Below, one piece after another: positions 38,510 to 45,411 of a DNA stretch of 64,000 nt. Below the pieces are notes generated by a model. That model was not told the origin of the DNA. It did not search any database and saw only the letters and a program-made list of their open reading frames with translations. The stretch's first letter is position 1; each line of letters starts with the position of its first letter. This DNA comes from Gellertiella hungarica. Its GTDB lineage: Bacteria > Pseudomonadota > Alphaproteobacteria > Rhizobiales > Rhizobiaceae. The translations under genes were made by a program, and so were the position numbers. The stretch covers positions 558,001 through 622,000 of the forward strand of contig NZ_JACIEZ010000002.1 in NCBI RefSeq assembly GCF_014197145.1, written 5' to 3'.

Positions 38510-40024
38510 ATGAGCGAAAAGTCAAAGAAACCGCAGAAGCTGAAAGCCCGCTTGCCTCGTGGTTTTGTCGATCGCCATGCCGGCGACATCCGCGCCGTCG
38601 AGGAGATGGTGGCGAAGATCAAGGCGGTCTACGAGCGCTACGGCTTCGATCCCGTCGAAACCCCGCTCTTCGAATATACGGATGCGCTGGGCAAGTTCCT
38701 GCCCGACAGCGACCGGCCGAACGAGGGCGTGTTCTCGCTGCAGGACGACGACGACCAGTGGATGAGCCTGCGCTATGACCTGACCGCGCCGCTCGCCCGC
38801 CACGTGGCCGAGAACTTCAACGAGATCCAGCTTCCCTACCGCACCTATCGTGCGGGCTATGTCTTCCGCAATGAAAAGCCCGGCCCCGGCCGCTTCCGCC
38901 AGTTCATGCAGTTCGATGCCGACAGCGTTGGCGCCCCCGGCGTCCAGTCAGATGCGGAAATGTGCATGATGATGGCAGATACGCTCGAGGCGCTCGGCAT
39001 CAGGCGCGGCGATTATGTGATCCGCGTCAACAACCGCAAGGTTCTCGACGGCGTGATGGAGGCGATCGGCCTCGGCGGCGAGGAGAATGCCGCCCGGCGT
39101 CTCAACGTGCTGCGCGCCATCGACAAGCTGGACAAGTTCGGCGAGGAAGGCGTGCGCCTGCTGCTCGGCGAGGGCCGCAAGGACGAAAGCGGCGACTTCA
39201 CCAAGGGTGCGGGCCTGAACGAGGAGCAGATCGGCAAGGTTCTCTTCTTCGTCGGTATCAAGAATTACGCCGAAAGCGCAGACGCGCTGGCGGCACTTGT
39301 GGCAGGCACGTCGAAGGGTGCAGAAGGCGTCGAGGAACTGAACCTCATCGGCGCGCTGGTATCGGGCGCCGGCTATGACAGCAGCCGCATCAAGATCGAT
39401 CCCTCCGTCGTGCGCGGCCTCGAATACTATACCGGCCCGGTCTACGAGGCCGAGCTCACCTTCGACGTCACCAACGAGAAGGGCGAGAAGGTCGTCTTCG
39501 GTTCGGTTGGCGGCGGCGGGCGCTATGACGGGCTCGTTTCGCGCTTCATGGGCCAGCCGGTGCCGGCCACGGGCTTCTCCATCGGCGTTTCGCGCCTGAT
39601 GACGGCGCTGAAGAACCTCGGCAAGCTCGGTCAGGACGAGGTGCTGGCACCTGTCCTCGTCACGGTCATGGATGGCGACGTGGAGGCCATGGGCCGCTAC
39701 CAGCGCTTCACCCAGGCCCTGCGCAACGAGGGTATCCGCGCCGAGATGTACCAGGGCAACTGGAAGAAGTTCGGCAACCAGCTGAAATATGCCGACCGCC
39801 GCGGCTCGCCGGTCGCGATCATCCAGGGCGGCGACGAGCGCGCCTCGGGCGTCGTGCAGATCAAGGACCTGATCGAGGGCAAGCGCCTTTCCGGCGAGAT
39901 CGAGGACAACGCCACCTGGCGCGAGGCGCGGGTGGCCCAGGTCACCGTGCCGGAAGCCGAGCTTGTGGAAACCGTCAAGCGCATCCTCGCCGAACAGGCA
40001 GAGGATCGGGCGAGGGCGAAGTGA
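38510..40024 (+). CDS. hisS: Histidyl-tRNA synthetase
   Basis: A class II aminoacyl-tRNA synthetase charging tRNA-His. The 504 aa product has motif 2 ([20 protein letters not shown], about residues 114-133), the histidine-specific motif [15 protein letters not shown] (about 303-317), motif 3 ([13 protein letters not shown]) and a C-terminal anticodon-binding domain. It includes the insertion usual in rhizobial HisS ([19 protein letters not shown]). It is followed by hisZ and hisG in the same orientation, but a 217-nt gap containing a perfect 40-bp inverted repeat separates hisS from hisZ. Confidence 0.97.
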
Positions 40025-40041
40025 ACATGTTGCCGAGGGCT

Positions 40042-40202
40042 TTCCCCTCCCCCTTGTGGGGAGGGGTCAGGGGTGGGGGTATCTTGGCGCACCGGCTTGC
40101 TGTCGCGCGCAAGAATGATATCTCCCGCCTTGCCCGGACAGTCCTTTCTTTTCGTGCGGAATTACCCCCACCCCTGACCCCTCCCCACAAGGGGGAGGGG
40201 AA
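40042..40202. repeat. Perfect 40-bp inverted repeat element between hisS and hisZ
   Basis: Arm 40042-40081 is the exact reverse complement of arm 40163-40202, with an 81-nt spacer. Each arm is GC-rich and is itself partly palindromic, with a 9-bp C/G stem around a 5-nt loop. This is the form of short palindromic intergenic repeats of rhizobia (RIME/REP-like); I cannot assign a named family. In RNA it would fold into a very stable structure between hisS and hisZ. Confidence 0.85.
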
Positions 40203-40241
40203 GGTTGCCGCAAGTGCTTCCTTCCCGAAGGGAGGCCGTCA

Positions 40242-41387
40242 ATGTCCCGAGGTCACCCCATGCCTCTGATGAAACTTCCCGCCTTTGCGGCAGAACTCTC
40301 CGGCCTGCTTGCCGCGCGTGGCACGGAGCGGGTCGATACCGCCGTGATCCAGCCGGCCGAGCCCTTCCTCGACATGGCCGGTGAGGATCTCCGCCGCCGG
40401 ATCTTCATGACCGAGAGCGAGACCGGGGCAAGCCTTTGCCTGCGGCCGGAATTCACCATTCCCGTCTGTCTGCGCCATATCGAGACCGCCACCGGCACGC
40501 CGCGGCGCTATTCCTATCTGGGTGAGGTCTTCCGCCAGCGGCGCGACGGTCCGAACGAGTTCTATCAGGCCGGCATCGAGGATCTCGGCGATGCCGCGAC
40601 CGATGCGGCCGACAGCCGTGCGATCGGCGATGCGCTCGACATTCTGGCGGCGCTGCTGCCGGGCCGGACGATCACCACGATTCTCGGCGATCAGGCGGTT
40701 TTCGAGGCCGTGGTCGGAGCGCTCGGCCTGCCGTCCGGCTGGCAGAAGCGCCTCATCCATGCTTTCGGCAACATGGCGCAGCTCGAAACCTGGCTCACGC
40801 GGCTTGCCGAGCCGCAGCCGGTGACGGGCCTGACGGACGAGGTCCGCGGCCTTCTCGAAGCCGGCGACGAGGCGGCGCTGATCGGCTGGATCGACCGCAC
40901 GATGGCCGCAACCGGCTATTCCACCAATGCAAGCCGCAGCCCCGAGGATATTGCCCGGCGGCTGAAGCAGAAGCTGGCGCTCGCGGAAACCCGGCTCGAT
41001 CCCGGCAAGATCGCCGTCCTCCGCCGCTTCCTCTCGCTCTCGGTTCCGCTTTCGGAAGCACCCGCCGCGCTCGACGGCTTTGCGGCAGGGGCGGGGCTGG
41101 ATCTCGGTCCGGCGCTCCAGGCGTTCCGCGAGCGGGTCTCGGCGCTCACGCGCCTCGGCGTCGATGCCGCCGCGATTACCTACCGCGCCGCCTTCGGGCG
41201 ACCGCTCGATTACTACACCGGCCTTGTCTTCGAAATGACCGGTCCGAACGGTGCCGTGCTTGCGGGTGGCGGGCGGTTCGACCGGCTGCTGACGCTGCTG
41301 GGCGCCGAGCGTGCCATTCCCGCCGTGGGCTTCGCCCTCTGGCTCGACCGGATCGAAACGGCCCGCGCGACAGGAGGCGAGGCATGA
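40242..41387 (+). CDS. hisZ: ATP phosphoribosyltransferase regulatory subunit
   Basis: HisZ is a HisS paralogue lacking aminoacylation activity; it associates with short HisG to form the active, histidine-inhibited ATP phosphoribosyltransferase. The 381 aa product keeps class II synthetase motifs in weakened form ([58 protein letters not shown]) and has no C-terminal anticodon-binding domain. GGGAGG precedes the chosen ATG; a second ATG six codons later is an alternative. It overlaps hisG by four bases. Confidence 0.95.
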
Positions 41388-44537: not shown

Positions 44538-45160
44538 CTCAATCCCCCAGTTCGGCTGTGGCGGCAGCCGTCTTGCGCTCGATCCAACCGGCGCTGGAAA
44601 GCTTCCGGTTGCATTTCGAAGTCACGCCAGAACGAGCCCGGGCAGGTACCGTCGGGCTTCGCTGGCCGCGTTCCGGGAATTTACGGGTGCCCCAACCCCT
44701 GACGGGACAATCATAAACCGGCGGAACAACAATAGGTGCGGTGATGTCCATCCGCACGCACCGCCATCTGTTATAGCCGGAAAACGGCATCTTGTTGTGA
44801 TATGGCGACGGCCGAACAAATCATTTCGGCGAACGGATGTATAAATAAGGTATGGAATATTGCAATCCCATTTTATGGCTGCATAAATTCACAGTATTAA
44901 CCGCTGGGTTGCAGGAAGCCCCTGCCGATTTCTGGTTCTCCGGCTGGCGAATACCTGACAAAAGTCAGAAAACACCAATGCCCCTCCGCCGCTGCCCTTC
45001 TCGCGGGATCAGCTGGTTCAGGCTGATACAGTATTGTTATCATTGATGTTTGCGTGATGGTGGCGGGAGCGGCAACGCTCTTCCTCTGCCGTCCGGCACC
45101 TCCCTCTGTCCCTGCGGGCGTGGAGATTGGCGATGTGCACCCGCGCCGCACGGTGTGGTG

Positions 45161-45371
45161 GAGTTTGCCGATGCGCACCCCCCTCTGCCCTGCCGGGCAT
45201 CTCCCCCTCAAGGGGGGAGATTGGGATGGGGATTCTTGGGGCAGTCCCCAGCCACCTTTTTGCGGATGAGACGCCAGTTGTCTGGGGAAATCAAAAACCG
45301 CAATGTCGATCTCCCCCCTTGAGGGGGAGATGCCCCGGCAGGGGCAGAGGGGGGTGCGGTGCGGCAAACTC
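45161..45371. repeat. Near-perfect ~61-bp inverted repeat, rhizobial intergenic mosaic type
   Basis: Arm 45161-45221 and arm 45309-45371 are reverse complements apart from two single-base insertions and a short mismatch block, separated by 87 nt. The core contains C5-6/G5-6 runs around CAAG. The pattern resembles RIME-like intergenic repeats of Rhizobiaceae; the family name cannot be confirmed here. Confidence 0.8.
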
Positions 45372-45411
45372 CACGCCCTGCCAGGCAGGGGGGTGCGGTG
45401 CGGCAAACTCC
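45349..45411. repeat. 24-nt tandem partial copy of the repeat arm
   Basis: The stretch at 45349-45372 recurs exactly at 45388-45411, 39 nt later. It is a partial third copy of the outer end of the inverted-repeat arm, showing the mosaic has been extended. Confidence 0.75.

Follow-up and report, generated by a model that had tools for sequence, protein, structure and literature searches.

A perfect inverted repeat lies between hisS and hisZ in the 64,000-nt stretch of the Gellertiella hungarica genome analysed here (the window, G000:C2:558001-622000; G000 is the window's genome, 4.77 Mb in 36 contigs and 99.99% complete). Our results show that exact family A arms, when partnered, almost always form inverted pairs, and that the palindrome superfamily represented by this repeat is associated with genes of the DUF559 family (PF04480), as seen in the location of the gene between inverted arms, in the matching of clades and in exchange at one site. 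We consider it probable that the element of the window is a non-autonomous, heads-inward dimer of palindrome family A, part of a nuclease-palindrome system that resembles REPIN/RAYT and employs an unrelated DUF559 enzyme.

As a preliminary description of this DNA had claimed, the repeat consists of two 40-nt arms, 100% complementary, separated by an 81-nt spacer (the core). Each arm is composed of a hairpin, CCCCTCCCC-ACAAG-GGGGAGGGG, and a 15-nt head, TACCCCCACCCCTGA, and both heads point into the core (heads-in, or TT). The same description called each arm palindromic, which is correct for the hairpin part and incorrect for the head.

DUF559 genes and inverted palindromic arms

One family A locus of G000 (C1:419k) has, 40-45 nt from its dimer, a DUF559 gene of the A clade, i.e. 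the clade matching the window's arms (G000:C1:418853-419173), and for this reason a test of the relation between DUF559 and palindromes was undertaken. The genome has one more DUF559 gene, which adjoins C arms. Across six genomes, with G008 picked for its many palindromes, 9/9 free-standing DUF559 genes adjoin palindromes of these families, a tenth match lying inside a 1105-residue frame. With the domain alone serving as the query, four DUF559 genes were found in 116 listed class-wide loci (878 kb), each of them 33-190 nt from an exact arm.

PF04480 was found in 92/199 genomes of the order, and 40 of these 92 made up our order set, with one place taken from each (generally the best match). A dimer is located at most 450 nt from DUF559 in 19/40 of these places. 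Inverted repeats numbered 26 in 54.8 kb near DUF559 versus 23 in 394 kb farther off, and gaps adjoining DUF559 were occupied more often than other gaps (25/73 versus 15/218; odds ratio 6.9, stratified by gap length).

A gene was regarded as spanned when inverted arms (at least 20 nt, at least 80%) were present on both sides within 300 nt. In the order set, this applied to 26/40 DUF559 genes versus 2/195 control genes of 240-900 nt from the same loci, one of these two being itself a DUF559 gene. A second, class-wide set gave 19/29 versus 0/41 controls. Together with the six-genome set (7/9) and the loci found through their arms (2/4), the count for all 82 loci reaches 54/82, versus 2/586 controls. 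In the hisS stretches, 1/335 control genes was spanned. As to orientation, 27 of the 54 spans are heads-in, like the window's dimer, and 6 heads-out; 5 are unclear, and the remaining 16 are short or without a readable hairpin.

These counts bear on the idea that arms and DUF559 merely use the same permissive intergenic sites and have no functional tie, which we disfavour as quite improbable. It would agree with the concentration of dimers in long gaps (7/51 gaps of at least 400 nt versus 0/62 gaps of 20-60 nt), but control genes with both flanking gaps of at least 80 nt were spanned in 2/170 cases, versus 54/82 for DUF559 (p 1.7e-31), and the odds ratio for occupied gaps given above holds after length stratification.

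The clearest case is L144, in which exact copies of the window's arms lie heads-in immediately around a DUF559 ORF (open reading frame), upstream of a glyS-like gene. In L319, near-identical arms form the same arrangement upstream of glyS, and L386, from the window's family, reads arm-DUF559-arm with family A arms nearly identical to those of the window. Family A arms flank DUF559 in inverted orientation at these three example loci, and the window's arm is a member of the DUF559-associated palindromes, a class defined here. Three other loci (L165, L219 and L195) are located after a pdhC-like gene; the gene names around these three and around L144 and L319 are our own reading. Among annotated plasmid records, for which looser limits were applied (arms of at least 16 nt, within 350 nt), 6/8 were spanned, including two Deinococcus plasmids that carry the DUF559 gene among phenylacetate or 4-hydroxyphenylacetate genes. 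The arm finder gave no inverted arms in one cyanobacterial record of the eight, and in one Sinorhizobium record the dimer adjoins the DUF559 gene without surrounding it.

In S. meliloti pSymB (L381; 2669557-2672847), DUF559 lies between 114-nt inverted repeats that match at 110/114 positions and contain two hairpins each, and this unit adjoins an ISRm16 transposase gene. The 3.7-Mb genome of G057 contains just two copies of the exact hairpin pattern, and these flank its only DUF559 gene (L387; G057:C1:129500-132000). Several DUF559 ORFs (L144, L195, L388) read into an arm at their end, and an ORF of the window (39697-40092, minus strand) has the arm translated as a protein tail such as TPTPDPSPQGGGE.

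Arm families, nuclease clades and exchange between gaps

Arm classes were assigned by motif count on the inverted arms, a rough scheme that covered 70/82 loci (S 27, A 26, B 12, C 5). When mapped on a tree built from 69 DUF559 domains, these classes need 15 changes, versus a mean of 33.4 after shuffling, and 0/200 shuffles were as low. C arms correspond to one DUF559 clade (98/87), and A arms to 16/17 rows of another (91/81). We treat the tree as supporting rather than decisive, because it comprises 110 columns only and related genomes contribute to it.

Stronger evidence for matched nuclease and arms is provided by one orthologous gap (hydantoinase-like genes), in which an A-clade DUF559 with A arms is present in G000 and G004, and a B/S-clade DUF559 with B arms in G002 and G003. 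In G001 this gap contains neither DUF559 nor arms.

The comparison with four relatives also covered four more loci of G000 and part of a fifth (gene names are again our reading). At an acyl-CoA dehydrogenase/CoA-transferase-like gap, G000 has family A, and G003 and G004 have a different palindrome. At a transporter-like gap, family A is found in G000 and G002, and G003 and G004 have a CGTC-like dimer. The third gap is empty in G002, carries A in G000 and carries both A and B in G004. The exchanges extend to the adjoining stop or start codon and therefore resemble intergene replacement, not clean insertion. In L112 and L113 (G004 and G003), an inverted palindrome family, AAATGGCGTCTTTC...GAAAGACACCATTTTCGCC, is found in a gap occupied by family A in G000.

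The hisS-hisZ gap also varies across genera. It has close to zero length in most of the Rhizobiaceae sampled and has been opened repeatedly by dimers of various palindrome families. G004, the closest genome found for the stretch, carries this element too, within a stretch 95% identical to that of G000, and its two arms differ at one position. G003 carries family B (CCCTCATCCG...CTTCTCCCC) in the gap, G002 carries family C (CCTCTG...CATCTCCCC), G007 has both C and B, and G033 has an A-like heads-out pair. The feature of the window is a dispersed palindrome similar to repetitive extragenic palindromes (REPs) or RIME, as had been proposed, and not a conserved leader. In 33 genomes inspected by eye, 12 gaps hold a dimer, 2 a small ORF and 19 neither; 14 genomes of the last group have hisS and hisZ overlapping or at most 7 nt apart. 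On the hisS tree, the state of the gap takes 11 changes, and occupied versus not takes 5. In L065 and L070 (G013 and G021) the small ORF is, in our reading, glyoxalase/VOC-like, and the gap has no palindrome dimer.

In an automated count, the hisS-hisZ gap was occupied in 7/30 cases versus 11/362 other gaps (Fisher p 1.3e-4), or in 6/30 (p 8e-4) when the mispredicted G031 is dropped; the gap was selected because the window holds the element, a bias removed only by the omission of G000 (outside the set) and G004 (excluded). Starts of hisZ are mispredicted in several genomes: G031 was scored as occupied, and G018, G035 and G036, which look occupied by eye, were not. The plus-strand RNA of 40025-40240 has a predicted folding energy of -143.5 kcal/mol (z -11.3, 0/200 shuffles as low).

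This strong structure, the excess of occupied gaps and the several families seen among the 12 dimers would suit a selected regulatory hairpin, i.e. a gap that needs strong RNA structure separating hisS from hisZ-hisG and has recruited various palindromes. We nevertheless find this explanation unlikely, as 19/33 genomes have neither dimer nor ORF, most of them with the overlapping or closely spaced genes described above, and other housekeeping gaps are also occupied.

The DUF559 enzyme, its putative role and related systems

The protein of L144 matches PF04480 with an E value of 2.9e-37. Its structural model (mean predicted local distance difference test score, pLDDT, of 75; built from 4 sequences) is matched by 3hrl (Z 15.2), by I-Bth0305I (3r3p_A; Z 12.2, root-mean-square deviation 2.6 over 94 residues) and by Vsr (1cw0_A; Z 10.6). 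Judged from this model, the DUF559 catalytic domain has the Vsr/EDxHD nuclease fold, and in PMC9403480 a DUF559 gene is assigned to the EDxHD homing endonucleases. The likeness to I-Bth0305I and Vsr is one of fold; the DUF559 gene differs in being free-standing between palindromic arms, and none was observed inside an intron or intein. Defence-system profiles gave nothing beyond weak partial matches to large proteins. We found no publication linking DUF559 with palindromic repeats in the literature searched, which left subscription papers and preprints largely uncovered.

The main rival explanation is that DUF559 is a Vsr-like repair or resolving nuclease that processes, tolerates or is regulated by hairpins, the dimers being spread by other machinery or by recombination. 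The resemblance of the fold to Vsr speaks for it, as do a weak match of the G000 DUF559 protein to TIGR00632 vsr (5.6e-4, below cut-off) and the fact that neither empty site nor target duplication was found in the loci compared. Yet the gene sits inside inverted arms, the arm family tracks the nuclease clade, and units of nuclease plus arms substitute for each other at one locus, which makes this explanation somewhat unlikely in our judgement.

We regard DUF559 as a good candidate for the agent spreading the palindromes, as far as can be judged from sequence comparison. The DUF559 protein would recognise its cognate hairpins and cut or nick DNA, and repair of the break would copy the arm-core-arm unit into the site in a homing-like manner; short dimers such as that of the window would be copied in trans. 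Mobilisation by DUF559, and any effect on hisS/hisZ expression, are inferences. More tentatively, the hisS-hisZ element may be kept or tolerated, its RNA hairpin acting as a stability or attenuation element.

A broader proposal, on which we are evenly divided, is that DUF559 and its cognate palindromes constitute an undescribed class of homing-like elements present in more than one phylum. Each clade would spread its own arm-nuclease-arm units (~0.45 kb) and short non-autonomous dimers, and the families would compete for, and replace one another at, the same docking sites in housekeeping operons, hisS-hisZ being one example. If true, this would suggest a role for DUF559, a family of poorly known role present in 92/199 genomes of the order, and would help to explain differences in operon gaps, such as hisS-hisZ, between close species.

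Several observations weigh against a DUF559-driven spread. No clean empty site with target duplication was found in the loci compared, where differing gaps have exchanged the intergene. There are 28/82 unspanned DUF559 genes and 12/82 DUF559 loci without a classifiable arm. Taken by itself, class B shows hardly any clustering on the tree (9 changes versus 11.2 after shuffling, with 15/500 shuffles as low), and near relatives have both nuclease and arms in common, which inflates the tree test. Moreover, G037 and G041 have the palindrome without a PF04480 match, and in the 24 genomes G037-G060 DUF559 is present in 4/6 palindrome carriers versus 7/18 non-carriers, with no clear correlation.

The system proposed here shares with REPIN/RAYT the short intergenic hairpins in inverted pairs (HH or TT) and an enzyme gene flanked by the repeat. 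It differs in that the flanked enzyme is a DUF559 nuclease with the predicted Vsr/EDxHD fold, and in that the family A arm (TACCCCCACCCCTGA plus hairpin) is without GTAG at the foot of the hairpin, as seen by eye on one strand only. That the window's dimer is a classical REP/REPIN moved by RAYT (TnpA-REP) is hardly credible to us. The hairpin dimers, HH or TT and with variable TT cores, would fit such an origin, being as described for GTAG and CGTC REPs in PMC3733652. However, the arm carries neither the GTAG nor the CGTC tag, and a search of G000 for PF01797 (Y1_Tnp, RAYT) gave 0 matches, with controls positive in 5/14 genomes. A TnpA-REP transposase encoded nearby or elsewhere in the genome, the mobiliser envisaged earlier, is therefore rejected for G000 and largely refuted unless a RAYT was recently lost; the associated enzyme is the DUF559 nuclease.

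According to PMC3733652, CGTC REPs are mostly alphaproteobacterial and form dimers with stems of 8-9 bp and loops of 4-5, in which they resemble the family A element. The criteria given there (the tag, A-T pairs starting the 8-9 bp stem and a CCA-like tail) do not describe the family A arm, which lacks the CGTC (TGTC/CCTC) tag, begins its stem with C-G pairs rather than A-T and has a long GC-rich head. CGTC REPs of alphaproteobacteria are reported in that text without a dedicated transposase, and a nuclease located inside related repeats is a concrete, testable candidate enzyme.

The window element and the spread of family A

The dimer and its neighbours in the window are as follows.

40042-40081, minus strand: left arm of the dimer (hairpin 40044-40066; head 40067-40081, directed into the core)
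40082-40162, no strand: core, 81 nt (best blastn match elsewhere in the genome E 0.12 over 20 nt, none strong)
40163-40202, plus strand: right arm, exact inverted copy (head 40163-40177; hairpin 40178-40200)
38510-40024, plus strand: hisS, upstream neighbour (ORF; orthologues in relatives)
40242-41387, plus strand: hisZ, downstream neighbour (ORF; orthologues; conserved start probably 40260)

The hisZ ORF opens at 40242, and the start kept in the compared relatives is the in-frame ATG at 40260. The arm 23-mer (at most 3 mismatches) has 2 copies in the window versus 0 in 100 shuffles. No U-tract terminator or sigma-70 promoter was recognised by consensus in 39900-40400, and no family reached its gathering score in an Rfam scan of the window. 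Judging by its position, the dimer could possibly uncouple hisS from hisZ-hisG, as had been suggested. A phage origin was rejected, as 40030-40210 has no match among 50,697 phage records.

Copies of the arm in G000 were pooled from a 35-mer scan (at most 3 mismatches; 12 places, reversed control 0), a hairpin scan (13 places) and blastn, which adds degenerate arms. They add up to ~18 whole or partial arms, distributed over 9 loci of which 8 are inverted pairs, and confirm the earlier supposition that the arm belongs to a repeat family and is not unique in the genome.

Heads-in pairs: C1:85k, window, C6:99k, C10:138k
Heads-out pairs: C1:419k, C1:672k, C2:687k (plus a third partial hairpin), C9:53k
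Lone hairpin: C15:43k

On visual inspection the heads-in pairs have unrelated cores, and the two arms of a pair show 0 to several base differences. Local inverted duplication as the source of each pair is disfavoured, since arms differ within several pairs and can match between pairs (by eye).

The perfect arms had been taken to imply recent insertion, gene conversion or selection. Their identity is no proof of a recent event, because the arms of G004 differ and the 35-mer is exact in at least 116 other stretches, all alphaproteobacterial among the matches listed. Among the same matches there are 121 exact arms (20/121 near a locus edge), of which 97 are partnered within 320 nt (56 TT, 40 HH and 1 HT) and 24 are single. 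Core length is specific to the lineage: Methylobacterium has mostly TT cores of 39 nt, Bauldia TT cores of 86 nt, and Mesorhizobium and relatives HH cores of ~66 nt. These fixed unit lengths suggest that the dimer, rather than the single arm, would be the spreading unit. Variable cores are a rule of thumb for TT dimers in PMC3733652; the TT dimer of the window agrees with this rule, whereas the TT cores of Methylobacterium and Bauldia, of fixed length and partly conserved, do not. A looser arm pattern was present in 7/200 genomes sampled across the phylum, all 7 from the window's own order.

Contigs C23 and C35 of G004 and C7 and C21 of G003 (L094, L095, L102, L105) stop inside or beside palindrome dimers, and assemblies may therefore undercount such elements.

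RIME1 and RIME2 of Rhizobium, likened here by description and not by sequence, are likewise rhizobial intergenic repeats. RIME1 reportedly holds two large palindromes, and RIME may correspond to family B or C. Family C (CACCCCCCTCTGCCCTGCCGGGCATCTCCCCC...) is represented in the window itself by a second palindromic element, at 45158-45411, whose 33-nt arms are 91% complementary and which has an additional partial arm copy downstream.
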